A stretch of 64,000 nt of DNA from Chondrosia reniformis (taxonomy: Eukaryota > Porifera > Demospongiae > Chondrillida > Chondrillidae): assembly GCA_947172415.1 (NCBI GenBank), contig OX359196.1:6015901-6079900 (forward strand), given 5' to 3'. The translations under genes and the position numbers were made by a program. This document shows positions 37,201 to 64,000 of this stretch, piece by piece; position 1 is the stretch's first letter, and each line of letters starts with the position of its first letter. Under the pieces are notes generated by a model. That model was not told the DNA's origin, searched no databases, and worked only from the letters and a program-made list of their open reading frames with translations.

Positions 37201-38771
37201 AATGGTACTTCTGAGCGAGCAACATCTCCCCTCCCGGAGCTTGTTACAGTTGGGATCAACACAGTTAGCATTCAGGAGAAGGGTACTTTGACTGACCCAA
37301 TGGTTGATGAAGAGTCAGTTTTTTCAAAACCAGCAATGTTGCCTGATGCCAAGGAAGAAACAGATGGAGTGACAGAAGGTGTGTCAGGCACTGGTGGGAG
37401 GGGTGCATCAGAAGGTGTGTCAGGCACTGGTGGAAGGGGTGCATCAGAAGGTGTGTCAGGCACTGGTGGGAGGGGTGCATCAGAAGGTGTGTCAGGCACT
37501 GGTGGGAGGGGTGCATCAGAAGGTGTGTCAGGCACTGGTGGGAGGGGTGCATCAGAAGGTGTGTCAGGCACTGGTGGGAGGGGTGCATCAGAAGGTGTGT
37601 CAGGCACTGGTGGGAGGGGTGCATCAGAAGGTATAGCATTGGAGGAAAGGGAGAATAAATCTGAAGAAATGGCAAGTGAAAAAGAGAAAATTAAGCCAGA
37701 AAGCATGACAAAAGGAGAGAGTAAGGATTTGTCTGAAGAAAAGACAGAGAAGAGAGATGGAGAACCAGGTGACTCACAATCAACACTTGAACAGAACAGT
37801 ATTCCCAAACTTAACCAACACAGTTTTAGTCCCATTAGAAGCTCTACACCAGTTTCAGACATCCAGGTTGGTACCCAAGTGTTGGTATGTTGGCCTACTG
37901 ATGGATGGTACCACACTGGCAGAGTCACATCAACAGATCATGTTGACACACTGACAGTAATGGATCATAATGGTGATGTGGACACTGTTCCTAAGGCTGA
38001 CGTGATCATACTTCCACATACCAACCATTCTATCAAGGTTGGTGATTTTGTTCTATCACCACATCCTCATTACCGCCCCTTCATCCTGGGACCAGGGAGA
38101 ATCATTGCTCACATGCTTGGTGACTTGTATACAGTCTCCCTTTTTGATGAAGAAACAGTAAACATCCCCGGCAGTAAACTGGTGGTCACTACAGAAGACA
38201 GGTACAAAAAGGATGTTCGGAACATTACTATGAAGCAACAACAGTGGATGGGGCAGACCTTTGTAGTTCGAGATGATGCAGACGGCTTCTATTATCACAT
38301 GACAGCCTGTCGGTACCAAGATGGCTGGTTTGCACTGATAAAGCTCCGTAATGGTTCCTTGGTGCAGCAATCATCCAATCACGTTTTTGGGAGTGCACAG
38401 AGAAAGAGACACATTATGCCCAATGATTATGTAATAGCTTTTGACAGCTATGACATGAGCTCAGTTGGCATTCCAAGCTGGGTGTTGGAAACAAAAGATG
38501 GAATTAACTATATAAGGCAATGCCATGACAACAAAAGGTTTGCTACATGCAATGGTACAATAGAACTGCATATGGTGTAATTTGTGTGTCCTATACTCTA
38601 CAATATAACCATTGACTAAGGCTTCTCTCTTCCTTTTACAGTGTTTCAATTCCTTCAGATCTGTGCATTTGGATATCAGAGGATTACTATAAGAATGCCG
38701 TTAATTTCATTCTCAAAAGTCCCCAATTGAATAATGAGGCCACAAGTGATGACTTGTCAAGTGGCACTTAG
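31287..38771 (+). CDS. VWA3B: VWA3B-like protein: two VWA regions plus DUF4537/Tudor-like segments
   Basis: Thirteen exons (31287-31379, 31502-31574, 31656-31747, 31845-31942, 32002-32642, 32985-33697, 33965-34147, 34386-34542, 34939-34996, 35074-36109, 36405-36569, 36817-38576, 38642-38771) join in phase to 1732 residues. A degenerate VWA-like region (RRPVLILWARTP...) precedes a second VWA with an intact MIDAS motif DTSSSMKLH and the later FLTDGRPDQ. AEWLAVHGVRSNKLTFNDLV and FRHCDG are VWA3 hallmarks. The C-terminal half has several beta-barrel segments of DUF4537/Tudor type (VLAQDPSDGFFYPARV, VLVCWPTDGWYHTGRV, VVRDDADGFYYHMTACRY), coiled coil and two coding minisatellites. VWA3 proteins are poorly characterised and often found in ciliated animals. 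The start is the first ATG of the open frame. Confidence 0.85.
34614..34741. repeat. MITE-like inverted repeat in VWA3B intron 8
   Basis: ATGAGACTCAGCAACACAA..ACAGAAATGAAC (34616-34652) is the inverted copy of GTTCATTTCTGTGAAACATTGTGTTGCTGAGTCTCAT (34703-34739) with a small internal mismatch. The loop is about 50 nt. Only one copy is in this window. Confidence 0.85.
35690..35815 (+). repeat. Coding minisatellite, 24-bp unit (KSTLASES)
   Basis: Five tandem units of GCTTCAGAGAGTAAATCCAC-type sequence in VWA3B exon 10. The first two units diverge (SKSTPASK, SKSALASE) and the last three are identical, suggesting expansion at the 3' side. Confidence 0.93.
37376..37632 (+). repeat. Coding minisatellite, 36-bp unit (EGVSGTGGRGAS)
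   Basis: Seven tandem 36-bp units in VWA3B exon 12, almost identical (one G/A difference in unit 2). They encode Gly-rich dodecapeptides. Both strands stay open through the array. Confidence 0.95.
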
Positions 38772-45900: not shown

Positions 45901-48900
45901 CTTTTTATATATCCTTTTAAACCTTGATTATCCAGTCACCTATCTAGTGTGCAGGTAGATAGGTGATATGATTAGGAAGGTTTCATTGTAGACTTAAATA
46001 GATTCAAGACTACTTGCCATCGAGCAATATACGTACAGATCAACATTACTATATTTACCAGTATTCCCTACCTTTTTGGCCAAGCAAAGAGTCCTGAGAC
46101 CTAATTTTGCATAGAGATTCAGATGATGTTCAGTGGCATTTGTCGGATCATTCGTATCACCGTCATCAACACAGAAGGCCTCAGTGTTGTCACTTCCTTG
46201 GGAAGGTGATTGGTTCAACTTATTAAGTATTGCTGAGTCAGCACCCTTGGAATACATGATTATGTCACTTGTCCCAACCTCTTGAACGATGACAGACATC
46301 ATCTTACGCTCGCTATCAAATGGCAGCACTTGCAGGACATCATATTCTACCACTCCTTGATAGAGGGTCAGAATAACCACTTTATTTTGACTCCGATGCA
46401 GCAACGCATAGCCATAGTTTCTGGCAGCCTAAGGAAAATGAATAAGTGGGTAGAGTAGTAGATGGATGGATGGATGGATGGATGGATGGATGGATGGATG
46501 GATGGATGGATGGATGGATGGATGGATGGATGGATGGATGGATGGATGGATGGATGGATGGATGGATGGATGGATGGATGGATGGATGAATGGAAGGGTT
46601 CATGGGTGGATTAGAAGATGGTCAGATGATGGATGAATGAGCAGATGGGTGAATGGGTATGTGGGTGGATGGCCATGGGTGAATGGTGAAAGGGTGGATT
46701 GATAAATAGATCGTACATTAACTAAAGCTAGTTCATCCGGCGACTCAGCCTCATAAACCAATGAATCAAGGTCACAATGACCTACAATTTCTTCTACTTG
46801 TTCCAGCATAGTTTGAGGCCAAGCAGGACACTTAACTGCTGCAGGTTGTAATGTTTGTGACTTTGGTACATCTGTCTCAGCTCCAGAATCACAATCCATT
46901 TTGGAATCAGAATCAGACTGGTAATATTGACATGTCCCTGGTAGTGTAGTTTGAAGAAAAGTGTCTTGACTGTTGTTATCACACAACTCTTCTGGATCTT
47001 GACTGGACGAGATGGGATTATATAGTCGGGACTGAAAATTCTGAAGAGTATTTTGTAGGTTTTGAACCTTAGAGTGAATATTGTGATAGGTGGATTGTAA
47101 GTTGGTTTGAATGCGTAGTTGGAGGTTTTGCAAAGAGATATTCAGTGCTTGTAGCGTGGTTCTAAGACTGATCATAGAGGAGTACATACTTCTGCTATTC
47201 TGCAGTAGGTTCAGTTCCCCGGCCTGGAAGGAGTGGTCAGACACTACAACACTGTTACAGAGCGTCATGGTTAACATGAAATCATTGACGCATGGGACTG
47301 GTTGCATATTGAGTTTTCCAACTTTGGCTAACAGCTCCTCATCAAGATAAAACTCAAGCAGAGTCTTTTCCTACAAGAAGCAGTGAACATAAGGAAAAAT
47401 TAGTCAAGCAAAAATAGGCAATAACAACTCACTAACACACCACAGATGCTATTACGTATCTGGTTAGCCATGGCAAAAGGAAAATTAAATTCAATGAAAA
47501 TTGTGACTGGAATGCTTACCAGATATATACGTAGAGTATGTATGCAACAAAGACCACAATATTTGATGACTTAATAGATCCCATTGCACATACAACCTCT
47601 ATATGCAGAGCTATATGATAGGGGTCCCTATTCCATGTCATCTTAAACTCCCAGAGAAGTTTAAATTAATTAAACTGATAAATTGAATAGATTAGAAGTT
47701 ATAAGAATTATAACAGCTTTCAAATAAAATGTTGACACTTGTTAAACTATAGCTATGTCGTATATAACCATTGTATGTGATGGATTAGGACTTCCGACCT
47801 GTGTATACTTAAAAGACAGAGTGAGGCATCGCGAGTGCCCAAGAGTGGTAGCATGTACGTACGCACGCACATATGTAATGTAATGTATGCCTTCACTCAC
47901 ATTCTGGTGCGATGTGGTGAGTATGTCAGGAGTTTGTAGACCACTCTCCAATGCAGCAAACTGTGAATTTAGCCCATGAGGATAGCTGATTCCACCTATG
48001 CTACAACACCTAAATAACATTTCATTCTCTGTTAGTGTTCCTGTTTTATCAGAGAAAATGTACTGCACTTGACCGAGGTCTTCTGTTAAATTGAGGGATT
48101 TGCAAGTTATTCTCTTATCACCTTTACTGTAATACAGATCTATGTCTCTGCTTATAAAGTACACTTGAAAGACTTTGATGAGCTCCATTGTAATGTAGAG
48201 GGACAGTGGTATTATAACCTATATACAGTACAAGTTACAATATACTAAGGTAATCTAATAATATAATATAATATAAATAATTCATATGGCTCCAAGAAAG
48301 GACCTAGCAACAGAATGGGCATAGTATCATAAATTTAGGGTATAGAACTTATTTTAAATTATATACACACGCAAACAAGCTCCTATGATTGTAATTGTGC
48401 AATCCAAGTAATAGAAATGCAAAGTGCATAGGACTATGAGAATTTAGTTACATAATATGGATTTTAATTTCATATAAAAATCAGATCAATTTCAGACTAC
48501 ACCCACTAATTATGTACATAATCAAATGAAAACTACACACACATAAGGCTTACAGATAATTAATCAGTTTAACATACGTACACGCAATCTTCTACCAAAC
48601 CAATTTAATACATCTCCCATACTTATGGAGTAAGAATCTCTTCTAACTACCTTAAATCTGTCTTTTGTGTTAGACGGGTCATGCATGTTTCACTGAAAAG
48701 ACCCACATGGTGGGCGTGTCCAACCACAAAAGACCCACATGGTGGGCATGTCCAACCACAAAAGAATTACCAAACTGTGTTTCTAGATGCTCAAAAGTCA
48801 AAAGATGATCCACCTACAAGTCTCTTACAATTGTTCCTTAATGGTTTAGCTGGCACATAAGTATGCAACTAGTTCTGACTGAGCAGCACTCACTTGCAGT

Positions 48901-51597: not shown

Positions 51598-52188
51598 ATG
51601 AACAGCATCGGTAAAATTCAAATAGGAAGAAAGGATTTGGTAGTCTTGGTATCCATTGCAGCCCTTATTCTGCTCTGTGTAGTGACAATTGTCATCGATC
51701 TTTCTATATTGGCCAAAAGTGGGAGTTGTGATGAAAAATGTAGCTCAGAAAATTTACCACTGAGAGATATTGAAAATGCACTGAATGCCATTAACGAATC
51801 AATACAGCAGTTGCTGTCTTGGCAATGTACAACAAAGCCACCACTTATACGCTTACCAACAGCGGGACGGTTTCGCTTGGAACACACGACGTTGTGTTCC
51901 CAATTAGAACTTTCCTGTGTGATTACGACAGCAGGCTCTAATTCGAGTTGCGACACAGAAGCAGTTTCAGAGCCACCGAATAGAGTAACCATAAATCATC
52001 AATGTATCGTAAAGCAAGCTCCGGAAGAAAACACTGGCTTAAGCTTAAGGATAGCTCTTGTTTCTAGGAATGGATACTACTGTCATTGCAGCGTGCAAGA
52101 TATACCCAGGACAAGAAATTACGAATGTGTTTACATAAGAACCGATTGCCCTCTACAAACTGCTATTACAGATGCTACTTTTTATTGA
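51598..52188 (+). CDS. Single-pass membrane protein with Cys-rich ectodomain, intronless, unrecognised
   Basis: A single exon of 196 residues. Residues ~14-36 (LVVLVSIAALILLCVVTIVIDL) form a signal-anchor after a short basic N-terminus (KIQIGRKD), indicating a type II protein. The extracellular part has about 11 cysteines (CDEKC, CTTKPP, CSQLELSC, CDTEA, CIVK, CHCSV, CVY, DCPL) and possible N-glycosylation sites (NES, NSS). It has no recognised domain. The even cysteine spacing suggests a small disulfide-bonded domain, perhaps a lineage-specific receptor or ligand; that is inference. Confidence 0.7.
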   Translation: MNSIGKIQIGRKDLVVLVSIAALILLCVVTIVIDLSILAKSGSCDEKCSSENLPLRDIENALNAINESIQQLLSWQCTTKPPLIRLPTAGRFRLEHTTLCSQLELSCVITTAGSNSSCDTEAVSEPPNRVTINHQCIVKQAPEENTGLSLRIALVSRNGYYCHCSVQDIPRTRNYECVYIRTDCPLQTAITDATFY

Positions 52189-52582: not shown

Positions 52583-55396
52583 CTATTCCATCACTATGAC
52601 AACTTGTTCTTGCACGGCTTTATTGTTTATGCACTTGTACGCATCTGGGAAACGCTCATATTTGAAGACCATTGGGTCCTTTGGCTTCAATCTGCCTTCT
52701 TGGCACAACTCTGACACATATTCTAGAACCATTCCAAAATTAAGTCCTTCTGTGTCCAGATTAACCTTATAAAATGGAACATCAGGGGGAAATTGTGGAA
52801 GTGCTGGGGTATCTTCTGGATTGAAATAAGTGATAATATCCAGGACCACATCATAGTCGTGCCGCAAAATTTCCACAAAGTTCTCTTGCCTGTAGCTCAC
52901 AATGACATCGGCACCAAGCTGACGCACAAACTCAATGTTGTCTGTAGAACAAGTGGTTGTCACACTAGCTCCCCAAGCCTTAAGAAGCTGGATGGCAAAA
53001 CTACCCACACCACCGGATCCACCGTGAACTAGAACTTTCTTGCCAACGGCATTTCCTTCATTCAGTCCGGCTCTCTTCACAAGAGCTGACCAAACTGTGC
53101 AAGACACCCAAGGGAGAGAGGCAGCACCCACAAAGTCAACATTCTTTGGCTTTAGAGCTACTACATCAGTAGTGGCCACTACATACTGAGCTTGGGCCCC
53201 ACCAGAGGGAAGATGAAGGTACACTTCATCACCTGGTGCAAAGGCGGTGATGTCATTACCGACTGCTACCACCTCTCCAGCACATCCGTAGCCCAGGGCT
53301 AATGGAAGGGAGGACTCTGATACATTTGGTGCAAGACCTTTGCAGGTATGCAGGTCGGCTTGGGTTACCGAAGTTGCTCTGACACTCACTAGGATCTCCC
53401 TCCTCCCGAATGTGACCACTCTCTTTGGCTCCATTTTGACAACTTCTGAAGGCTCTCCAAACTGGTGCATCACAATGCCCTTGTGTCTGGCTACCTGCGT
53501 CCGATCCTCCTTCCTAGAAAAGATGGCACTTAATCCCACAAAGAGTGATGCAGCCACCACTGTAAGAAACAGGACTGCTCCTGGACTGGTTCCAAACAAT
53601 GCCACAGCACTTACACTAACCAGTGGAACTGCTAGCCACTTCATTGATCTGAAGAGAGCCTTCTCAGGTCGAGAGAACCACGGCAGCAAGCGTCTTGGGG
53701 GATTATTACCAACAAGTGTGTCAATCAACCGTTTGGCTCTCTCTGTGGATGGTTCGGTATCTGACCTCCAACCAACCACAGCATCCGGTCTAATCAGGTA
53801 ATACTTCTTAGGATATGCCCTTCTAATTGCGGGGGTTGACTCCATGACATGAACTGAGAGTGGGATGGCTCTTCTCTGAAACTCTCCTTGAAGCTGAAAA
53901 CAGGCTTCCTTGCTGTCCTCTAAAATGAGAAGAACATAGCTCTTGCCAAACAGGTCGTAGATTGTTTCCAGGCTTTCAGTTTCCACATGTGGGGCTCGTC
54001 TACCTGGGCCGTCTAAAGGAATAAATGGATCCTTTGGCTCTGGATCATCTCCTCTCAATTTACCCTCATCATAAACAACAATATTGGATCTGTCATAATA
54101 GAAAGCAAGGACAGTTTGAGCTAGTCGAATGACTAGACTTTTTTTAACAAAGGCCTGGCTTAATTTCCTCACAATGTAGGAGATAATAGGAGTACGCATG
54201 ATGATTAAAACAAACTGCCATACAACAGCAGCTTGTCTCACTCCACCAAACTGGAGGGCAACTTCTTGAACTGTCTGCTCTGCAATACCTCCTCGTTCCC
54301 TGTGGTAGGATTCCAGGAGGTGTGGCCCTCCCCACCCATGTAACATTGCAGCAAGTTTCCAACCCAAATCTGTGGCATCTCCAATGCCAACATTCATCCC
54401 CACTCCTCCAGCCGGAATCCACTGGTGAGCTGCATCTCCACAGAGGAACACATTGCCTTTGTGAAACTTTGTGGATACCACTGCATGTGCTTTCCAAGGA
54501 TAGCAAGCAAGAACCTTAAAATCAATCTCCTTTCCAACTATGGAGTGTAAGATAGGCCGGGGATCCCTGAATAGTGGATGGTTCTCATCAATTTCTTCTG
54601 CTCCAAGTAGCACCTGCACCATGAATTTACACTCTTTGGGATAAAATGCTGCAATTAGGGCTAAATAATCCTTAGTGATAAACCCACCTAAGCCTACCTT
54701 GTCTTGTACTATGTCTAAAAGCTCGGGAGATTGCACATAAATGGCTAGAACTTTCTGGATAACAAACTTCCCATATTGAACGATCCCTAAACTCTTTCTG
54801 ACTGCACTTCTCCCTCCATCACAGCCTACAAGGTAACGAGCTCTTATAGTCTTCTCTTCAGGAGCTTCAGAATCTTTCATTGCACTTGCTTTCTGAATGA
54901 TTGCTGTAACACCATTCTCATCTTGATCAAATGATACCAACTCCCACTCTCTCAGGAAGGTGACTTCGGGTGAAGACTTCACTTTGGCTTCCAAAACTGG
55001 TTCCAATGCAAACTGTGGAATTATCATGGGAATTTCTCCAGAACATCCAGATTCGAAATATAATAGCTTCTTGTTTGGAAGCTTGTCCTCAACCTCTCCC
55101 CAGCTATCTAAATCCAAGGCAAAAATCTCTTGTCCCTGATACACTTGTGTGCCAAAAGAGAATATCTGCTTTACATCTCGAGGGTAAGATACCTTCCTGA
55201 TCGCAGCTGTAAGCCCCAATCGACGGAAACTTTCCATCGAACGGACAGTAACATTAAACGCTCTTGGTAGTACGGTACAGCAGGAGCTACGTTCCACTTG
55301 AATGCAGCGGACGCCATGGTAAGCCAATTCCGAAGTCAGCGTTAAGCCAACGGGACCTGCTCCAATCACCAACACGTCTGTCTCAACACGTTCCAT
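52583..55396 (-). CDS. FAD monooxygenase-MDR oxidoreductase fusion, copy 1
   Basis: One exon, 937 residues from the ATG at 55396 (an upstream in-frame TTG is ignored). Residues 1-375 are an FAD-binding aromatic hydroxylase (PheA/MhpA type): GAGPVG at 12-17, the second FAD/NADPH motif GCDGG at ~191 and the FAD ribityl motif CGDAAHQW at ~319-326. Residues ~455-550 match the thioredoxin-like C-terminal domain of such hydroxylases (PGRRAPH, IYDLFGKSYVLL, YYLIRPDAVVGWR). Two hydrophobic segments lie at ~586-625. Residues ~640-937 are a zinc-free MDR quinone reductase-like domain with NADPH loop HGGSGGVGS at ~791. The MDR C-terminus is short. The likely reaction is hydroxylation of an aromatic or polyketide-like substrate plus NADPH-dependent reduction; substrate unknown. 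Distinct residues (GGFITKDYLALIAAF, AVVWQFVLIIMRT) separate it from copies 2-3. Confidence 0.9.
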   Translation of the reverse strand: MERVETDVLVIGAGPVGLTLTSELAYHGVRCIQVERSSCCTVLPRAFNVTVRSMESFRRLGLTAAIRKVSYPRDVKQIFSFGTQVYQGQEIFALDLDSWGEVEDKLPNKKLLYFESGCSGEIPMIIPQFALEPVLEAKVKSSPEVTFLREWELVSFDQDENGVTAIIQKASAMKDSEAPEEKTIRARYLVGCDGGRSAVRKSLGIVQYGKFVIQKVLAIYVQSPELLDIVQDKVGLGGFITKDYLALIAAFYPKECKFMVQVLLGAEEIDENHPLFRDPRPILHSIVGKEIDFKVLACYPWKAHAVVSTKFHKGNVFLCGDAAHQWIPAGGVGMNVGIGDATDLGWKLAAMLHGWGGPHLLESYHRERGGIAEQTVQEVALQFGGVRQAAVVWQFVLIIMRTPIISYIVRKLSQAFVKKSLVIRLAQTVLAFYYDRSNIVVYDEGKLRGDDPEPKDPFIPLDGPGRRAPHVETESLETIYDLFGKSYVLLILEDSKEACFQLQGEFQRRAIPLSVHVMESTPAIRRAYPKKYYLIRPDAVVGWRSDTEPSTERAKRLIDTLVGNNPPRRLLPWFSRPEKALFRSMKWLAVPLVSVSAVALFGTSPGAVLFLTVVAASLFVGLSAIFSRKEDRTQVARHKGIVMHQFGEPSEVVKMEPKRVVTFGRREILVSVRATSVTQADLHTCKGLAPNVSESSLPLALGYGCAGEVVAVGNDITAFAPGDEVYLHLPSGGAQAQYVVATTDVVALKPKNVDFVGAASLPWVSCTVWSALVKRAGLNEGNAVGKKVLVHGGSGGVGSFAIQLLKAWGASVTTTCSTDNIEFVRQLGADVIVSYRQENFVEILRHDYDVVLDIITYFNPEDTPALPQFPPDVPFYKVNLDTEGLNFGMVLEYVSELCQEGRLKPKDPMVFKYERFPDAYKCINNKAVQEQVVIVME

Positions 55397-55686
55397 TAGC
55401 TTTCGTGTTAGTTGCAAGCCTCAACGTGTACATATAGCAGCTCCTTGGCGTATCTTTGACCTTTAAATAAATCATAGAATATTTCGAATTCGATAATTGT
55501 CGCTATGTACGTGGGTGTAACCTCGCCTAGGACCTTATACGGTCCTGTATAAGCTGTTTGTTTATGGAGAGACCATATTTTTTGTTTTCTATTTATCCAA
55601 GCTTACAAATTAAACTCACTACAGTATACAGAAAACTAAACTAGATGATACGGAAAGGTTACTGTATCAAGTGGAAAAGCTACTTG
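55397..55686. repeat. Array spacer 1
   Basis: This 290-bp spacer between copies 1 and 2 is almost identical to the spacer at 58501-58796. It contains the promoter of copy 1 and the 3' end of copy 2. GGACCTTATACGGTCC (~55529-55544) is near-palindromic. Confidence 0.85.
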
Positions 55687-58500
55687 CTATTCCATCACAA
55701 TGACAACTTGTTCTTGCATGGCTTTATTGTTTATGCACTTGTACGCATCTGGGAAACGCTCATATTTGAAGACCATTGGGTCCTTTGGCTTCAATCTGCC
55801 TTCTTGGCACAACTCTGACACATATTCTAGAACCATTCCAAAATTAAGTCCTTCTGTGTCCAGATTAACCTTATAAAATGGAACATCAGGGGGAAATTGT
55901 GGAAGTGCTGGGGTATCTTCTGGATTGAAATAAGTGATAGTATCCAGGACCACATCATAGTCGTGCTGCAAAATTTCCACAAAGTTCTCTTGCCTGTAGC
56001 TCACAATGACATCAGCACCAAGTTGACGCACAAACTCAATGTTGTCTGTAGAACAAGTGGTTGTCACACTAACTCCCCAAGCCTTAAGAAGCTGGATGGC
56101 AAAACTACCCACACCACCGGATCCACCGTGAACTAGAACTTTCTTGCCAACGGCATTTCCTTCATTCAGTCCGGCTCCCTTCACAAGAGCTGACCAAACT
56201 GTGCAAGACACCCAAGGGAGAGAGGCAGCACCCACAAAGTCAACATTCTTTGGCTTTAGAGCTACTACATCAGTAGTGGCCACTACATACTGAGCTTGGG
56301 CCCCACCAGAGGGAAGATGAAGGTACACTTCATCACCTGGTGCAAAGGCGGTGATGTCATTACCGACTGCTACCACCTCTCCAGCACATCCGTAGCCCAG
56401 GGCTAATGGAAGGGAGGACTCTGATACATTTGGTGCAAGACCTTTGCAGGTATGCAGGTCGGCTTGGGTTACCGAAGTTGCTCTGACACTCACTAGGATC
56501 TCCCTCCTCCCGAATGTGACCACTCTCTTTGGCTCCATTTTGACAACTTCTGAAGGCTCTCCAAACTGGTGCATCACAATGCCCTTGTGTCTGGCTACCT
56601 GCGTCCGATCCTCCTTCCTAGAAAAGATGGCACTTAATCCCACAAAGAGTGATGCAGCCACCACTGTAGGAAACAGGACTGCTCCTGGACTGGTTCCAAA
56701 CAATGCCACAGCACTTACACTAACCAGTGGAACTGCTAGCCACTTCATTGATCTGAAGAGAGCCTTCTCAGGTCGAGAGAACCACGGCAGCAAGCGTCTT
56801 GGGGGATTATTACCAACAAGTGTGTCAATCAACCGTTTGGCTCTCTCCGTGGATGGTTCGGTATCTGACCTCCAACCAACCACAGCATCCGGTCTAATCA
56901 GGTAATACTTCTTAGGATATGCCCTTCTAATTGCGGGGGTTGACTCCATGACATGAACTGAGAGTGGGATGGCTCTTCTCTGAAACTCTCCTTGAAGCTG
57001 AAAACAGGCTTCCTTGCTGCCCTCGAAAATGAGAAGAACATAGCTCTTGCCAAACAGATCGTAGATTGTCTCCAGGCTTTCAGTTTCCACATGTGGGGCT
57101 CGTCTACCTGGACCGTCTAAAGGAATAAATGGATCCTTTGGCTCTGGATCATCTCCTCTCAATTTACCCTCATCATAAACAACAATATTGGATCTGTTAT
57201 AATAGAAAGCAAGGATAGTGTGAGCTATTCCAATGACCAGACTTTTTTCAAAAAGAGCTTGGCCAAATTTCCTCACAAGGTAGGAGACAATGGGAGTACG
57301 CATGATGATTGAAAGAAGCTGCCCTGCACCAGCAGCTTGTCTCACTCCACCAAACTGGAGGGCAACTTCTTGAACTGTCTGCTCTGCAATACCTCCTCGT
57401 TCCCTGTGGTAGGATTCCAGGAGGTGTGGCCCTCCCCACCCATGTAACATTGCAGCAAGTTTCCAACCCAAATCTGTGGCATCTCCAATGCCAACATTCA
57501 TCCCCACTCCTCCAAGCGGAATCCACTGGTGAGCTGCATCTCCACAGAGGAACACATTGCCTTTGTGAAACTTTGTGGATACCACTGCATGGGCTTTCCA
57601 AGGATAGCAAGCAAGAACCTTAAAATCAATCTCCTTTCCAACTATGGAGTGCAAGATAGGCCTGGGATCCCTGAATAGTGGATGGTTCTCGTCAACTTCT
57701 TCTGCTCCAAGTAGCACCTGCACCATGAATTTTCCCTCCTTGGGATAAAACGCTACAAGGAAGGCTAAATAATCCTTAGTGATAAACACAGTTAAGCCTA
57801 CTTTGTCTTGTACTATATCTAAAAGCTCGGGAGATTGCACATAAATGGCTAGAACTTTCTGGATAACAAACTTCCCATATTGAACAATCCCTAAACTCTT
57901 TCTGACTGCACTTCTCCCTCCATCACAGCCTACAAGGTAACGAGCTCTTATAGTCTTCTCTTCAGGAGCTTCAGAATCTTTCATTGCACTTGCTTTCCGA
58001 ATGATTGCTGTAACACCATTCTCATCTTGATCAATTGATACCAACTCCCACTCTCTCAGGAAGGTGACTTCGGGTGAAGACTTCACTTTGGCTTCCAAAA
58101 CTGGTTCCAATGCAAACTGTGGAGTTAACATGGGAATTTCTCCAGAACATCCAGATTCGAAAAATAATAGCTTCTTGTTTGGAAGCTTGTCCTCAACCTC
58201 TCCCCAGCTATCTAAATCCAAGGCAAAAATCTCTTGTCCCTGATACACTTGTGTGCCAAAAGAGAATATCTGTTTTACATCTCGAGGGTAAGATACCTTC
58301 CTGATCGCAGCTGTAAGCCCCAATCGACGGAAACTTTCCATCGAACGGACAGTAACATTAAACGCTCTTGGTAGTACGGTACAGCAGGAGCTACGTTCCA
58401 CTTGAATGCAGCGGACGCCATGGTAAGCCAATTCCGAAGTCAGCGTTAAGCCAACGGGACCTGCTCCAATCACCAATACGTCTGTCTCAACACGTTCCAT
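55687..58500 (-). CDS. FAD monooxygenase-MDR oxidoreductase fusion, copy 2
   Basis: Same architecture and exactly the same length (937 residues, 2814 bp including stop) as copies 1 and 3, intronless, repeat unit ~3.1 kb. All FAD and NADPH motifs are intact, so it should be active. Differences concentrate at ~235-255 (TVFITKDYLAFLVAF) and ~385-435 (AGAGQLLSIIMRTPIVSYLVRK, EKSLVIGIAHTILAFYYNRS). Elsewhere, amino-acid differences are rare (KGAGLNEG for KRAGLNEG, GVSVTT for GASVTT). The copy-specific segments lie in the FAD-domain substrate-side region and just after it, consistent with altered substrate or membrane contact. No frameshift or stop. Probably the product of tandem duplication. Confidence 0.9.
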   Translation of the reverse strand: MERVETDVLVIGAGPVGLTLTSELAYHGVRCIQVERSSCCTVLPRAFNVTVRSMESFRRLGLTAAIRKVSYPRDVKQIFSFGTQVYQGQEIFALDLDSWGEVEDKLPNKKLLFFESGCSGEIPMLTPQFALEPVLEAKVKSSPEVTFLREWELVSIDQDENGVTAIIRKASAMKDSEAPEEKTIRARYLVGCDGGRSAVRKSLGIVQYGKFVIQKVLAIYVQSPELLDIVQDKVGLTVFITKDYLAFLVAFYPKEGKFMVQVLLGAEEVDENHPLFRDPRPILHSIVGKEIDFKVLACYPWKAHAVVSTKFHKGNVFLCGDAAHQWIPLGGVGMNVGIGDATDLGWKLAAMLHGWGGPHLLESYHRERGGIAEQTVQEVALQFGGVRQAAGAGQLLSIIMRTPIVSYLVRKFGQALFEKSLVIGIAHTILAFYYNRSNIVVYDEGKLRGDDPEPKDPFIPLDGPGRRAPHVETESLETIYDLFGKSYVLLIFEGSKEACFQLQGEFQRRAIPLSVHVMESTPAIRRAYPKKYYLIRPDAVVGWRSDTEPSTERAKRLIDTLVGNNPPRRLLPWFSRPEKALFRSMKWLAVPLVSVSAVALFGTSPGAVLFPTVVAASLFVGLSAIFSRKEDRTQVARHKGIVMHQFGEPSEVVKMEPKRVVTFGRREILVSVRATSVTQADLHTCKGLAPNVSESSLPLALGYGCAGEVVAVGNDITAFAPGDEVYLHLPSGGAQAQYVVATTDVVALKPKNVDFVGAASLPWVSCTVWSALVKGAGLNEGNAVGKKVLVHGGSGGVGSFAIQLLKAWGVSVTTTCSTDNIEFVRQLGADVIVSYRQENFVEILQHDYDVVLDTITYFNPEDTPALPQFPPDVPFYKVNLDTEGLNFGMVLEYVSELCQEGRLKPKDPMVFKYERFPDAYKCINNKAMQEQVVIVME

Positions 58501-58796
58501 TAGCTTTCGTGTTAGTTGCAAGCCTCAACGTGTACATATAGCAGCTCCGGATCCTTGGCGTATCTTTGACCTTGAAATAAATCATAGAATATTTCGAATT
58601 CGATAATTGTCGCTATGTACGTGGGTGTAACCTCGCCTAGGACTTTATACGGTCCTGTATAAGCTGTTTGTTTATGGAGAGACCATATTTTTTGTTTTCT
58701 ATTTATCCAAGCTTACAAATTAAACTCACTACAGTATACAGAAAACTAAACTAGATGATACGGAAAGGTTACTGTATCAAGTGGAAAAGCTACTTG
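58501..58796. repeat. Array spacer 2
   Basis: Copy of spacer 1 with a 6-bp insertion (GGATCC-containing CTCCGGATCCTTGG against CTCCTTGG), which explains repeat periods of 3104 and 3110 bp, plus a few substitutions (CTTTATACGG against CCTTATACGG). Confidence 0.9.
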
Positions 58797-61610
58797 CTAT
58801 TCCATCACTACGACAACTTGTTCTTGCATGGCTTTATTGTTAATGCACTTGTACGCATCTGGGAAACGCTCATATTTGAAGACCATTGGGTCCTTTGGCT
58901 TCAATTTGCCTTCTTGGCACAACTCTGACACATATTCTAGAACCATTCCAGAATTAAGTCCTTCTGTGTCCAGATTAACCTTATAAAATGGAACATCAGG
59001 GGGAAATTGTGGAAGTGCTGGGGTATCTTCTGGATTGAAATAAGTGATAGTATCCAGGACCACATCATAGTCGTGCCGCAAAATTTCCACAAAGTTCTCT
59101 TGCCTGTAGCTCACAATGACATCGGCACCAAGCTGACGCACAAACTCAATGTTGTCTGTAGAACAAGTGGTTGTCACACTAGCTCCCCAAGCCTTAAGAA
59201 GCTGGATGGCAAAACTACCCACACCACCGGATCCACCGTGAACTAGAACTTTCTTGCCAACGGCATTTCCTTCATTCAGTCCGGCTCTCTTCACAAGAGC
59301 TGACCAAACTGTGCAAGACACCCAAGGGAGAGAGGCAGCACCCACAAAGTCAACATTCTTTGGCTTTAGAGCTACTACATCAGTAGTGGCCACTACATAC
59401 TGAGCTTGGGCCCCACCAGAGGGAAGATGAAGGTACACTTCATCACCTGGTGCAAAGGCGGTGATGTCATTACCGACTGCTACCACCTCTCCAGCACATC
59501 CGTAGCCCAGGGCTAATGGAAGGGAGGACTCTGATACATTTGGTGCAAGACCTTTGCAGGTTTGCAGGTCGGCTTGGGTTACCGAAGTTGCTCTGACACT
59601 CACTAGGATCTCCCTCCTCCCGAATGTGACCACTCTCTTTGGCTCCATTTTGACAACTTCTGAAGGCTCTCCAAACTGGTGCATCACAATGCCCTTGTGT
59701 CTGGCTACCTGCGTCCGATCCTCCTTCCTAGAAAAGATGGCACTTAATCCCACAAAGAGTGATGCAGCCACCACTGTAGGAAACAGGACTGCTCCTGGAC
59801 TGGTTCCAAACAATGCCACAGCACTTACACTAACCAGTGGAACTGCTAGCCACTTCATTGATCTGAAGAGAGCCTTCTCAGGTCGAGAGAACCACGGCAG
59901 CAAGCGTCTTGGGGGATTATTACCAACAAGTGTGTCAATCAACCGTTTGGCTCTCTCTGTGGATGGTTCGGTATCTGACCTCCAACCAACCACAGCATCC
60001 GGTCTAATCAGGTAATACTTCTTAGGATATGCCCTTCTAATTGCGGGGGTTGACTCCATGACATGAACTGAGAGTGGGATGGCTCTTCTCTGAAACTCTC
60101 CTTGAAGCTGAAAACAGGCTTCCTTGCTGTCCTCTAAAATGAGAAGAACATAGCTCTTGCCAAACAGGTCGTAGATTGTTTCCAGGCTTTCAGTTTCCAC
60201 ATGTGGGGCTCGTCTACCTGGACCGTCTAAAGGAATAAATGGATCCCTTGGCTCTGGATCATCTCCTCTCAATTTACCCTCATCATAAACAACAATATTG
60301 GATCTGTCGTAATAAAAAGCAAGGACAGTGTGAGCTATTCGAATGACTAGACTTTTTCCAAAAAGAGCTTGGCCAAATTTCCTCACAAGGTAGGAGATAA
60401 TAGGAGTACGCATGAGGATTGAAACAAACTGCCTTGCACCAGCAGCTTGTCTCGCTCCACCAAACTGGAGGGCAACTTCTTGAACTGTCTGCTCTGCAAT
60501 ACCTCCTCGTTCCCTGTGGTAGGATTCCAGGAGGTGTGGCCCTCCCCACCCATGTAACATTGCAGCAAGTTTCCAACCCAAATCTGTGGCATCTCCAATG
60601 CCAACATTCATCCCCACTCCTCCAAGCGGAATCCACTGGTGAGCTGCATCTCCACAGAGGAACACATTGCCCTTGTGAAACTTTGTGGATACCACTGCAT
60701 GGGCTTTCCAAGGATAGCAAGCAAGAACCTTAAAATCAATCTCCTTTCCAACTATGGAGTGTAAGATAGGCCGGGGATCCCTGAATAGTGGATGGTTCTC
60801 ATCAACTTCTTCTGCTCCAAGTAGCACCTGCACCATGAATTTTCCCTCCTTGGGATAAAACGCTACAAAAAGGGCTAAATAATCCTTAGTGATAAACCCA
60901 GTTAAGCCTACTTTGTCTTGTACTATGTCTAAAAGCTCGGGAGATTGCACATAAATGGCTAGGACTTTCTGGATAACAAACTTCCCATATTGAACAATCC
61001 CTAAACTCTTTCTGACTGCACTTCTCCCTCCATCACAGCCTACAAGGTAACGAGCTCTTATAGTCTTCTCTTCAGGAGCTTCAGAATCTTTCATTGCACT
61101 TGCTTTCCGAATGATTGCTGTAACACCATTCTCATCTTGATCAATTGATACCAACTCCCACTCTCTCAGGAAGGTGACTTCGGGTGAAGACTTCACTTTG
61201 GCTTCCAAAACTGGTTCCAATGCAAACTGTGGAGTTAACATGGGAATTTCTCCAGAACATCCAGATTCGAAAAATAATAGCTTCTTGTTTGGAAGCTTGT
61301 CCTCAACCTCTCCCCAGCTATCTAAATCCAAGGCAAAAATCTCTTGCCCTTGATACACTTGTGTGCCAAAAGAGAATATCTGCTTTACATCTCGAGGGTA
61401 AGAAACTTTCCTGATCGCAGCTGTAAGCCCCAATCGACGGAAACTTTCCATCGAACGGACAGTAACATTAAACGCTCTTGGTAGTACGGTACAGCAGGAG
61501 CTACGTTCCACTTGAATGCAGCGGACGCCATGGTAAGCCAATTCCGAAGTCAGCGTTAAGCCAACGGGACCTGCTCCAATCACCAACACGTCTGTCTCAA
61601 CACGTTCCAT
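58797..61610 (-). CDS. FAD monooxygenase-MDR oxidoreductase fusion, copy 3
   Basis: Intronless, 937 residues from the ATG at 61610. Here the upstream flank diverges (no TTG-led extension), which supports this ATG as the start in all copies. FAD motifs are at 12-17, 190-194 and 319-326; the thioredoxin-like region is at ~455-550, membrane segments at ~586-625 and the MDR domain at ~640-937. Residues ~235-255 (TGFITKDYLALFVAF) and ~385-435 (GARQAAGARQFVSILMRT, GKSLVIRIAHTVLAFYYDRS) mix features of copies 1 and 2, suggesting exchange among copies. The upstream region (61611-61991) is unlike the spacers between copies 1-3, so this copy marks the boundary of the young amplification. Confidence 0.9.
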   Translation of the reverse strand: MERVETDVLVIGAGPVGLTLTSELAYHGVRCIQVERSSCCTVLPRAFNVTVRSMESFRRLGLTAAIRKVSYPRDVKQIFSFGTQVYQGQEIFALDLDSWGEVEDKLPNKKLLFFESGCSGEIPMLTPQFALEPVLEAKVKSSPEVTFLREWELVSIDQDENGVTAIIRKASAMKDSEAPEEKTIRARYLVGCDGGRSAVRKSLGIVQYGKFVIQKVLAIYVQSPELLDIVQDKVGLTGFITKDYLALFVAFYPKEGKFMVQVLLGAEEVDENHPLFRDPRPILHSIVGKEIDFKVLACYPWKAHAVVSTKFHKGNVFLCGDAAHQWIPLGGVGMNVGIGDATDLGWKLAAMLHGWGGPHLLESYHRERGGIAEQTVQEVALQFGGARQAAGARQFVSILMRTPIISYLVRKFGQALFGKSLVIRIAHTVLAFYYDRSNIVVYDEGKLRGDDPEPRDPFIPLDGPGRRAPHVETESLETIYDLFGKSYVLLILEDSKEACFQLQGEFQRRAIPLSVHVMESTPAIRRAYPKKYYLIRPDAVVGWRSDTEPSTERAKRLIDTLVGNNPPRRLLPWFSRPEKALFRSMKWLAVPLVSVSAVALFGTSPGAVLFPTVVAASLFVGLSAIFSRKEDRTQVARHKGIVMHQFGEPSEVVKMEPKRVVTFGRREILVSVRATSVTQADLQTCKGLAPNVSESSLPLALGYGCAGEVVAVGNDITAFAPGDEVYLHLPSGGAQAQYVVATTDVVALKPKNVDFVGAASLPWVSCTVWSALVKRAGLNEGNAVGKKVLVHGGSGGVGSFAIQLLKAWGASVTTTCSTDNIEFVRQLGADVIVSYRQENFVEILRHDYDVVLDTITYFNPEDTPALPQFPPDVPFYKVNLDTEGLNSGMVLEYVSELCQEGKLKPKDPMVFKYERFPDAYKCINNKAMQEQVVVVME

Positions 61611-61991
61611 TAGCTTTCACGTTTCTTACTTGTAAGCCTCAATGTACAGGTAGTATAATAACTCCTTGGCGAATCTTTGACCTCTTATACAGGACCACAA
61701 TTTCCTATCACGTTCTAACGTATGGTCCAATAGGATTGGTCACGCCGTAGGTTACGCCCATGTTGAGCGGAAAAATAGTGTTTCCTTAGTGATTATTTTA
61801 TGCTTATCATCAAATAATTCCTAAGCAAACATACAATTTTGTAATGTCATTGATAAATAAATTTTCACAAAATGTATCAAGACATTCTGTTCCATTTTAG
61901 CCTATAGTGTTTATAGAAGGTAATATTCTGTTCCATTCTAGCCTATAGTATAGTCCTAATAAGTGTTAATAGAAGTCTAATCAGGTAAATG
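61611..61991. other. Spacer between copy 3 and copy 4, diverged
   Basis: Only the first ~70 bp resemble the other spacers (AACTCCTTGGCGAATCTTTGACC). The rest is AT-rich with a small internal direct repeat (TATTCTGTTCCATTCTAGCCTATAGT at ~61924 and a near copy at ~61885). It holds the promoter of copy 3 and 3' UTR of copy 4. Confidence 0.6.
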
Positions 61992-64000
61992 TTACATTTT
62001 GATGATGACTTTTCCTCTAGAGTGACCATCAGCCACTTGTTGGTAAGCTGCCTTCACTTCATCCAAGGAGTACACAGAGCTGATTACTGGTTTTAGTTGA
62101 CCATCTTCCACCAGTGGACGAATGTAGTCCAGTGATTCCTTGCTTGGGTTGGCTGTGCAGTAGAAGAATCCTCGTCCATACAGAAGACGAGAGTGGAGAA
62201 TCTTCAGTCTGTAGAACCAGTTGTAGGCTATGGAACCGAGGAACAATCCCAAGTAACGCTGGAACACAAAGCTGGGACTGACCAGGCTGACGTATTTGGC
62301 ATCCCCAAACTTCTTCAATACTGCAAGTGAGGGACCTTCATAGTGACGGAGGAGACCAATAGTATCCAGGACCACATCATAGTCGTGCTGCAACACCTCC
62401 ACAAAGTTCTCCTGCCTGTAGTTGACAATGACATCGGCACCAAGCTGACGCACAAACTCAATGTTGTCCGTAGAACAAGTGGTTGTCACACTAGCTCCCC
62501 AAGCCTTAAGAAGCTGGATGGCAAAGCTACCCACACCACCGGATCCACCGTGAACTAGAACTTTCTTGCCAACGGCATTTCCTTCATTCAGTCCGGCTCT
62601 CTTCACAAGAGCTGACCAAACTGTGCAAGACACCCAAGGGAGAGAGGCAGCACCCACAAAGTCAACATTCCTTGGCTTTAGAGCTACCGTGTTGACATCA
62701 GTCACCACATACCTGGCATGGCTGCCTTGATAGCTCACCGGAACAGCTGCATATACAGCATCTCCTGAGACCACACCCTCCACACTGTCGCCAACTGCTA
62801 CCACTTCACCAGAACAGTCTCGACCGAGGACATGAGGAAACTCTGCTATGCCTGACGATTTGTACACCTTGGACAAGAAGCTTGCACCGTAACCCTGGCA
62901 CATGCGCACATCAAGAGGATTCACCGAGGATGCTCTCACTTGAATGAGCACGTCGTTAGGACCAAACTTGTTGGTTGTTGTGGGGTCAATCGCCAAGGCA
63001 ACAGATGGGGAATTGTAGCTATTAATAACAGCAGCGGTGTACTTGGAGACGCTCTTGACAATGCTGCCTGTCTGTTTCCATGGATAGCCCTGTAAAATGG
63101 CCAGGAATGTGATGGCAGCAAAGAGGGGCACATAGGTGGGAAGGTCTGTATATCTGTGAAGCTGATAGGCCAGCATAGCACTCAGGGCAGTGGAGAAGAC
63201 CAGTGGCAGCTTCACTGGTGGAACAAGAGCTTCAGCAGTCACCAATGTTGGTCTCACTCTCAAAGGAGGATCCATTCCTGTTACTACATCAAAGATTCTC
63301 TTGGCCTCTCCTTCGGTTGGCTGGAAGTTGGAGCACCATGCGATTATCGTATCTGCCCTGATCAGATAGTAGCGCTTTGGGAACACCAGAGTGACCTGTG
63401 GCTTGTTTGGGAGGATGTGAACCTGAAGGGGAATGCCACGCTTGCTAGCTTCATTCTGCATGGTAGCACATTCGCTCATCTCCCCACACACTACAAAAAG
63501 GCAAAACATTTGACCCAACTCGGGAAGGTCGTAACAGGATTCATAGGCAGGAAGCAGTTCGATGTGGGGCAGTCTCCTTCCTGGCTTGGCAACGGGGGAA
63601 AATGGAGCCTTGAGGAACTCTGGTGGCAGGTTCATTTGCTCATCTTCTGGTTCATGGACGATGATGTGTGAATTGGAGTATTCAAAAGCAAGCACTATCT
63701 TTGTTGTTGTTTTTAATGCATCCATATAATGGTTGCCTAAAACCACACCAAGTCTAGCACCAACATGTATAGCAGTTAATGAGAATCTGTTAAAAAGGCA
63801 TAAATTGGTACTTTCAACCTCAGAATAAAAGTTGGAAACATATCTCAAGGTATTTTCTGCTACAGGCATCCTTTCAATGGCATAAGAATCTAAAAGGTGA
63901 GGTCCTCCCCATTTTTGAAGATCAGCTGCCAATTTCCAAGCAAGATCCACTGCATCACCAAGCCCAGATTTTATTCCAAGTCCTCCACTCACTGGCCATA
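61992..64000 (-). CDS. FAD monooxygenase-MDR oxidoreductase fusion, copy 4 (5' end beyond window)
   Basis: An open frame of about 669 codons runs off the window end. The first in-window residues WPVSGGLGIKSGLGDAVDLAWKLA align with the FAD ribityl region of copies 1-3, so the GxGxxG part lies outside. The thioredoxin-like region (PGRRLPHIEL, KRYYLIRADTIIAW), membrane segments (LPLVFSTALSAMLAYQL, YVPLFAAITFLAIL) and MDR domain are present but well diverged. The exception is a tract around the NADPH loop that is nearly identical to copies 1-3. The MDR C-terminus is full length and RTN4IP1-like (LLRHYEGPSLAVLKKFGDAKYV, FFYCTANPSKESLDYIRPLVEDGQLKPVI, VYSLDEVKAAYQQVADGHSRGKVII), unlike the shortened end of copies 1-3. 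It is intronless throughout the visible part. Confidence 0.9.
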   Translation of the reverse strand, partial: WPVSGGLGIKSGLGDAVDLAWKLAADLQKWGGPHLLDSYAIERMPVAENTLRYVSNFYSEVESTNLCLFNRFSLTAIHVGARLGVVLGNHYMDALKTTTKIVLAFEYSNSHIIVHEPEDEQMNLPPEFLKAPFSPVAKPGRRLPHIELLPAYESCYDLPELGQMFCLFVVCGEMSECATMQNEASKRGIPLQVHILPNKPQVTLVFPKRYYLIRADTIIAWCSNFQPTEGEAKRIFDVVTGMDPPLRVRPTLVTAEALVPPVKLPLVFSTALSAMLAYQLHRYTDLPTYVPLFAAITFLAILQGYPWKQTGSIVKSVSKYTAAVINSYNSPSVALAIDPTTTNKFGPNDVLIQVRASSVNPLDVRMCQGYGASFLSKVYKSSGIAEFPHVLGRDCSGEVVAVGDSVEGVVSGDAVYAAVPVSYQGSHARYVVTDVNTVALKPRNVDFVGAASLPWVSCTVWSALVKRAGLNEGNAVGKKVLVHGGSGGVGSFAIQLLKAWGASVTTTCSTDNIEFVRQLGADVIVNYRQENFVEVLQHDYDVVLDTIGLLRHYEGPSLAVLKKFGDAKYVSLVSPSFVFQRYLGLFLGSIAYNWFYRLKILHSRLLYGRGFFYCTANPSKESLDYIRPLVEDGQLKPVISSVYSLDEVKAAYQQVADGHSRGKVIIKM

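Follow-up and report, generated by a model that had tools for sequence, protein, structure and literature searches.

Tandem genes fusing a group A flavoprotein monooxygenase to an RTN4IP1-like reductase in the sponge Chondrosia reniformis

The fusion gene array

The sequence analyzed here, hereafter the window, is a stretch of 64,000 nucleotides from the demosponge Chondrosia reniformis (GenBank assembly GCA_947172415.1, contig OX359196.1, C8 in our numbering, positions 6015901-6079900), the genome comprising 117.38 Mb in 15 contigs. Five genes, g1 to g5, lie side by side at the end of the window and beyond it (Table 1; positions outside the window are given as window-equivalents), each encoding 937-993 amino acids (aa) in a coding frame without introns. 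In a single frame, and in this order, they specify a group A flavoprotein monooxygenase, a linker that is hydrophobic and bordered by basic residues, and a reductase of the medium-chain dehydrogenase/reductase (MDR) family resembling RTN4IP1. With modest confidence, we read these genes as a family of five bifunctional redox enzymes in which the cofactor-binding cores have been homogenised and the substrate domains diversified. The strongest new facts are an apparent gene-conversion tract that crosses two subfamilies and a mosaic of variation in the probable substrate domain.

A first-pass annotation, made from the letters of the window, had described four head-to-tail genes encoding one polypeptide. 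Four genes do lie in the window, head to tail on the minus strand, and a single frame does join both halves of the protein, but the array holds five genes in all, with g5 beyond the window, and g4 belongs to a second subfamily that is 46% identical to g3. The amplification proposed in the same annotation is borne out by the tandem copies. A search of the whole genome with g3 returned six matches, namely the five array genes and one weaker MDR match on contig C1. The lengths of g1, g2 and g3 are counted from ATG; with an upstream TTG, g1 and g2 would reach 944 aa. Two other open frames without Pfam matches border the array: a plus-strand frame of 196 aa (window 51598-52188), which has a hydrophobic stretch at its N-terminus and converges on g1, and a 362-aa frame just upstream of g5 (L007:7490-8578), in which several hydrophobic stretches were seen by eye.

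Table 1. Positions of the fusion genes and their features (window coordinates unless stated)
Feature	Position	Strand	Description or basis
g1	52583..55396	-	937-aa fusion gene, single open frame
g2	55687..58500	-	937-aa fusion gene, single open frame
g3	58797..61610	-	937-aa fusion gene, single open frame
g4	61992..64000 within window; 5' part beyond, to window-equivalent 64961	-	989 aa, second subfamily
g5	window-equivalent 65937-68918, wholly outside window		993 aa
g1 candidate conversion tract (NADPH-binding fold)	52835..53161	-	third-position segment test
g2 candidate conversion tract	55939..56265	-	third-position segment test
g3 candidate conversion tract	59049..59375	-	third-position segment test
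g4 candidate conversion tract	62361..62687	-	third-position segment test
g3 RTN4IP1-like MDR half, shortened in C-terminal Rossmann half	58797..59690	-	Pfam, solved-chain match, alignment
g4 complete RTN4IP1-like MDR half	61992..63050	-	Pfam, solved-chain match, alignment
g3 FAD-binding monooxygenase domain, aa 5-378	60477..61598	-	Pfam
g3 linker (aa 584-628), hydrophobic, candidate membrane hairpin	59727..59861	-	hydropathy only
g1 variable island 1	54557..54796	-	pairwise differences
g1 variable island 2	54086..54316	-	pairwise differences
g2 variable island 1	57661..57900	-	pairwise differences
g2 variable island 2	57190..57420	-	pairwise differences
g3 variable island 1, aa 201-280, in probable middle/substrate-binding domain	60771..61010	-	pairwise differences; PMC4515095, PMC9474520
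g3 variable island 2, aa 361-437, overlapping probable second middle-domain segment	60300..60530	-	PMC4515095
g4 variable island 2 (island 1 beyond window)	63669..63893	-	pairwise differences

The genome paper reports 7.20 exons per transcript for C. reniformis (PMC12181767), and in a neighboring gene with a P-type-ATPase-like DKTGTLT motif, introns interrupt the coding sequence as read by eye. The contrast drawn earlier between intronless array genes and many-intron neighbors thus holds insofar as the array frames are unbroken; however, the window contains six further open frames, 269-729 aa long, and Pfam matches four of these, so the uninterrupted frames of the array are notable without being unique. 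Two other FAD_binding_3 matches on contig C3 (G000:C3:6515457 and 6518540), the first match containing one TAG, fall in open frames that are 494 and 426 aa long, and intron-poor flavoenzyme genes may therefore not be unique to the array.

Domain composition of the fusion proteins

Read from the N-terminus, the Pfam domains of g1-g3 are FAD_binding_3 (E 1e-74 to 1e-75), Rng_hyd_C (E ~1e-8), ADH_N and ADH_zinc_N. For g4, the portion inside the window contains the last part of FAD_binding_3, followed by ADH_N, ADH_zinc_N and an ADH_zinc_N_2 matched over its full length. In profile searches of the genome, each of the five frames carried FAD_binding_3, ADH_N and ADH_zinc_N. The best NCBIfam model for g3, PRK06126, scored 425.8 bits, below its cut-off of 445. 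Among solved chains, the half of the protein that binds flavin adenine dinucleotide (FAD) is matched best by RebC at 186.6 bits, followed by RubL, RdmE and GrhO5 at 123-134 bits. This half had been annotated as a PheA/MhpA-type FAD monooxygenase; the FAD monooxygenase assignment stands, but RebC/RdmE-type hydroxylases score higher than the phenol hydroxylase and MhpA-type models. The GxGxxG, DG and GD motifs of group A monooxygenases (named as in PMC9299503 and PMC3546652) are kept in all five genes, and a GMNxG segment following the GD motif is present in g1-g3 and g5, reading GIKSG in g4. In a sequence alignment, W301 of g3 lies opposite a Trp of RebC, in a motif kept in all five genes; such a Trp, on the re side of the flavin, is described as a fingerprint of type I hydroxylases (PMC9299503). 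By this aligned Trp, the N-terminal half is probably a group A flavoprotein monooxygenase of type I (RebC-like).

The MDR half of g4 matches RTN4IP1 (2vn8) at 219 bits among solved structures, the next chain scoring 128 bits, and RTN4IP1 is also the best MDR chain for g3, at 138 bits. The motif GGSGGVG, for binding reduced nicotinamide adenine dinucleotide phosphate (NADPH), is kept in all five genes, and a four-residue insertion common to the array MDR half and 2vn8 is missing from six of six aligned bacterial MDRs. The MDR half of the first-pass annotation is present in every copy, with RTN4IP1 as its nearest solved relative, although it is shortened in g1-g3; the domain is complete in g4 and g5, and only g5 combines a complete reductase with all checked motifs. 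RTN4IP1 transfers electrons from NADPH onto a quinone-like acceptor, and coenzyme Q synthesis depends on it (PMC10830421). The fusion proteins have no room for a mitochondrial presequence, as GxGxxG begins at residue 11 or 12. A structure model of the MDR half, with a mean predicted local distance difference test score of 65.6 and 121 of 352 residues below 50, was too weak for use.

Between the two halves, hydropathy marks one merged stretch in g1-g3 (584-628/629), which could accommodate two helices. In g4 it marks two segments (578-598 and 605-625), and likewise in g5. The threshold is a weak test, having also marked stretches within folded domains. The two membrane segments described earlier are thus seen as such in g4 and g5, while g1-g3 show the merged stretch. 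The linker may form a membrane hairpin that leaves both catalytic domains in the cytosol, an arrangement that the basic residues on both sides would suit.

Subfamilies and a candidate gene-conversion tract

The genes fall into two groups, with amino acid identities of 95.8-97.5% among g1-g3, 91.5% between g4 and g5, and 46-47% between groups over 916-920 aligned residues. Between groups, synonymous divergence (dS) is 1.9 for g3/g4 and 2.1 for g1/g5, nonsynonymous divergence (dN) is 0.51-0.52, and dN/dS for g3/g4 is 0.27. Because the 46-47% identity extends along the whole length, the fusion is, on these alignments, older than the split between g1-g3 and g4-g5, and the fused frame has been under constraint since before the recent copies arose. 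An upstream motif considered as a regulatory element was found in g1-g3 only and is explained by shared ancestry.

When DNA identity between groups is followed in blocks of 40 codons, it lies at 37-62% in 22 of 25 blocks and at 75-76% in one boundary block, and it reaches 92-99% in the two blocks that cover the reductase's NADPH-binding fold. For g3/g4, a segment test applied to third codon positions delimits this tract to g3 residues 746-854 (~330 bp). Identical third positions number 103 of 109 within it and 266 of 807 elsewhere, a score not reached in any of 10,000 shuffles. The remaining five between-group pairs behave similarly (91-94% inside, 32-34% outside, 0 of 10,000 shuffles each). 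Since third positions are alike beyond what protein constraint would keep, the tract is most readily interpreted as gene conversion across subfamilies. Its limits differ slightly with the partner, g3 residues 746-854 against g4 and 751-854 against g5, and may reflect more than one event.

Variable islands in the probable substrate-binding domain

Differences among the recent copies are concentrated in two islands of the FAD half. These islands make up 157 of 937 codons in g1-g3 and hold 39 of 65 nucleotide differences for g1/g2, 32 of 55 for g1/g3 and 22 of 47 for g2/g3; for g4/g5, they make up 154 of 989 codons and hold 129 of 204 differences. The middle domain of HbpA, formed by residues 77-95, 198-294 and 375-427, provides the floor of the substrate site (PMC4515095), and parts of the FlsO1 middle domain (177-259) build its pocket (PMC9474520). 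Both islands correspond to the two larger segments of the HbpA middle domain. With domain limits transferred from HbpA by alignment ranges and not residue by residue, the domain contains 27 of 46 variable columns in g1-g3 (in 151 of 937 residues) and 53 of 84 in g4/g5 (in 148 of 989 residues); segment 77-95 was left out of this set, and including it gives 27 of 46 and 55 of 84.

Amino acid replacement in this domain, taken relative to the remainder of the FAD half, gives ratios of 8.1, 7.0 and 11.2 for the g1-g3 pairs and 5.4 for g4/g5; between groups, the ratio falls to 1.3-1.4. In a bacterial control of 945 pairs (44 rows from 80 loci), the median ratio was 1.30 and the maximum 1.64, the closest of these non-independent pairs being 87% identical and none as close as the sponge copies. 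Generally fast evolution of the middle domain, considered as a cause of the islands, was not seen in these pairs.

Proposed function

Activated aromatic rings are what group A enzymes hydroxylate (PMC3546652). For RubL, which is related to the FAD half, quinone-reductase activity on its own substrate has been reported (PMC9299503). In the mechanism we propose, the linker hairpin would tether the protein to a membrane with both catalytic domains in the cytosol. The reductase would convert a lipophilic quinone or enone to an electron-rich hydroquinone or phenol, which the group A half would then hydroxylate; alternatively, hydroxylation would come first and be followed by reduction of the resulting quinone. 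In either order, both steps would act on one membrane-associated substrate. This coupling of hydroxylation with reduction, suggested already in the first-pass annotation, is the natural reading here. Gene conversion would keep the cofactor domains, linker and reductase alike among the copies, and the substrate-binding domain, left to differ, would give each copy a different substrate range. The enzymes could serve in detoxification of phenols and quinones from the diet or from symbionts, or in the production of defensive compounds.

A broader claim is advanced tentatively, and we think it rather less probable than otherwise: that the locus is a variable-domain-style animal enzyme array, in which conversion fixes the cores, hairpin and reductase, and has done so once across subfamilies, while the substrate domain is kept diverse, and whose fusion is unrecorded in the sources searched. 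If true, it would provide an animal-encoded pairing of oxygenase and quinone reductase in one chain on a membrane, and a clear case of conversion and substrate diversification acting on different domains of the same enzyme. Sponge chemistry is often credited to the sponge's bacteria; here the source of redox tailoring chemistry would be the animal itself. It would also supply a partner hypothesis for RTN4IP1-type quinone reductases. Several observations weigh against the reading of the genes as diversified bifunctional enzymes, and they are given below with the alternatives on which they bear, in addition to the borrowed domain limits and the more distant bacterial pairs described above.

Origin of the fusion

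Relatives of the FAD half are numerous in bacteria, with at least 447 loci confirmed, of which 80 were kept; the closest relative among these is 33% identical. In a tree of 76 bacterial and four sponge rows, the latter of unusual letter make-up, the sponge sequences form one clade on a long stem (1.24) with no supported sister. A tree of the FAD half had been named as a check in the first-pass annotation, and its proposal of lateral acquisition is left as possible for the FAD half, with no donor appearing. Its other proposal, retroposition, is unsupported, as nothing was found that separates it from other causes.

A bacterial fusion as the origin was rejected: no single frame of at least 150 aa matched both hidden Markov models at E 1e-5 in any of 80 genome loci or four plasmid loci, although MDR frames occur in the flanks of 5 of the 80 and 3 of the 4. 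The annotation's view of the two families as otherwise separate enzymes holds for the 80 prokaryotic genome loci in which it was examined. Samples by phylum, of 299 and 296 genomes, contained 4 genomes with matches (E 1e-60) and 1 (E 1e-50), respectively, and no match extended into the reductase; scoring covered only the two best candidates of each genome, which makes this a weak test. The three loci retained from the samples (L143-L145) showed no MDR match. Among 3257 plasmid records, six had one place covering at least 80% of g3, and the two opened were neighboring separate genes. Among viral contigs, the 78 pattern matches included no relative.

Searches of the sponge's own genome with the g4 reductase half and three MDR families revealed no recognisable separate RTN4IP1 among five compared regions outside the array. 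Outside-array matches accounted for 6 of 11 for ADH_N, 11 of 16 for ADH_zinc_N and 1 of 3 for ADH_zinc_N_2. One compared region alone, C1:5476k, matched the array MDR halves well (28-31% identity), and it resembles a zeta-crystallin-type reductase. Literature searches for a flavoprotein monooxygenase-MDR fusion, and for intronless horizontal gene transfer (HGT) in sponges, gave none on topic among the matches listed; a search for RTN4IP1 fused with an FAD monooxygenase gave one unrelated paper only, and searches for RTN4IP1 with sponges and for sponge HGT with FAD-dependent monooxygenases found nothing. The word "monooxygenase" is absent from the main texts, so far as these were available, of an Amphimedon HGT paper (PMC4784904) and a metazoan HGT compendium (PMC13342648).

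The protein is plausibly a chimaera of a bacterial-type FAD half and a eukaryote-type MDR half. One complicating consideration is a plasmid-borne bacterial MDR (L146), 40% identical to the g4 half, for which RTN4IP1 ranks second among solved matches at 187 bits (best 193), so that a match to RTN4IP1 does not by itself make the MDR half eukaryotic. A specific history, in which the FAD half was acquired laterally from bacteria, joined to a retrocopy of the sponge's RTN4IP1 and then amplified, is a serious contender toward which we nonetheless do not lean. It would account for the many bacterial relatives of the FAD half, for the lack of any copy with introns in the coding frame, for the RTN4IP1-like insertion, and for the failure to recognise a separate RTN4IP1 in the genome. 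It is countered by the distance of the best bacterial relative and the unsupported position in the tree, and by plasmid-borne bacterial MDRs that reach 38-40% identity to the array MDR half. Vertical descent with intron loss is an alternative to it, and an exon-wise search can miss an RTN4IP1 gene with small exons.

Alternative explanations

The islands could simply be the places that conversion tracts miss, with no selection on substrate range, an account that is possible although we find it somewhat improbable. For g4/g5, dS reaches 0.60-0.62 in the islands, compared with 0.19-0.20 in the FAD segments that flank them and 0-0.07 across the 3' half; because dS is raised in the islands along with dN, escape from conversion explains part of the pattern. 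Island 1 has no nonsynonymous excess in g1-g3 (dN/dS 0.16-0.23). Island 2 has dN/dS of 1.47 for g1/g2, 1.21 for g1/g3, 0.81 for g2/g3 and 0.65 for g4/g5; its excess in g1/g3 is not significant (p 0.15), and a few low-count segments outside the islands also exceed a dN/dS of 1 or lack synonymous change. On the other side, the same two stretches vary in two separate subfamilies and coincide with the probable substrate domain, and 17 variable columns are shared between the 42 and 82 of the two subfamilies in 916 columns (p 1e-8, partly due to clustering within each subfamily). Relative to the rest of the gene, nonsynonymous changes make up a larger share in g4/g5 (p 0.0008 for both islands together) and in island 2 of g1/g2 (p 0.03). 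These last observations are in better agreement with diversification of the substrate domain.

It is also conceivable, but in our view unlikely, that the FAD half alone is catalytic in g1-g3, the short MDR half being a leftover that serves for NADPH binding or as a scaffold, and that the array is an ordinary detoxification expansion. Relative to g4 and g5, g1-g3 are without ~50 residues of the C-terminal Rossmann half of the reductase, with ADH_zinc_N_2 covered over 32 of 134 positions as opposed to 134 of 134 in g4, and they may be poor or dead reductases. In the MDR tail, the few differences among g1-g3 are mostly nonsynonymous (1-2 synonymous, 3-5 nonsynonymous), compared with four synonymous and one nonsynonymous in g4/g5. 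The leftover account fits less well with a frame that stays open to its end and keeps GGSGGVG in all five genes, with a fold homogenised across subfamilies, and with the complete reductase of g4/g5 and its few nonsynonymous differences.

The hydroxylase of g4 raises a separate difficulty for five bifunctional enzymes. In its GIKSG segment, g4 carries a Lys in place of an Asn whose invariance across 48 rows is at least 90%, and its hydroxylase activity may be weak. A comparison of this Lys with Asn289 of PgaE was dropped because the positions disagree by count. The thioredoxin-like domain of the first-pass annotation, matched by Rng_hyd_C in g1-g3, is unmatched at E 0.001 in the part of g4 within the window, where the segment was assigned by alignment with g1-g3.

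An artefact of assembly or contamination, in which bacterial DNA or haplotype copies were assembled next to one another, is highly improbable: although the specimen also yielded 53 binned bacterial genomes (PMC12181767), the array lies within an 8.1-Mb contig near an intron-bearing gene in a HiFi/Hi-C assembly (odChoReni1.1; PMC12181767), its GC content of 43-48% compares with 35-46% in the rest of the window, and the differences between copies are strongly uneven along the gene, unlike those between alleles.

Other frames and repeats in the window

Elsewhere in the window, a 729-aa open frame without a Pfam match (7230-9419) consists mostly of tandem repeats with periods of 42, 51 and 63 bases. 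Two open frames with DUF4537 matches occupy 35126-38580, the second carrying a 36-base tandem repeat of 7.2 copies with 99% matches. A (GATG)n array of 33.5 copies with 98% matches is located at 46461-46594.

Comparison with known systems

The FAD half is like the type I hydroxylases RebC, RdmE and GrhO5-RubL, its best solved relatives, in the aligned Trp and, in g1-g3, the thioredoxin-like domain; those chains differ in being 533-555 aa long and in having no fused MDR half. The MDR half is like RTN4IP1 (OPA10), the best solved match of the g4 half, in its GxSGGVG motif and four-residue insertion. RTN4IP1, however, is a separate mitochondrial matrix protein (PMC10830421), whereas the array half is fused behind an FAD fold and is short in g1-g3; by our count, Arg103 of RTN4IP1 falls opposite a gap in the alignment.

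The pairing of the two activities has a parallel in Streptomyces plasmid loci L027 and L028, where an MDR gene comes after the FAD monooxygenase gene, separated from it by 138 and 150 bp, and the two genes are also close in L139, another Streptomyces locus. These neighbors differ from the sponge genes in being separate, and the MDRs of L128 and L139 are without the RTN4IP1-like insertion. The surroundings of L027 and L028 include P450, ferredoxin and methyltransferase genes and look like a secondary-metabolite cluster.

The closest known architecture is that of the angucycline enzymes PgaM, UrdM and LugOII, which are oxygenase-reductase fusions whose reductase is a short-chain dehydrogenase/reductase (PMC10728087). 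Those fusions are bacterial, and the excerpt of that source mentions no membrane linker, whereas the sponge genes carry an MDR reductase and form a tandem array in a eukaryote.

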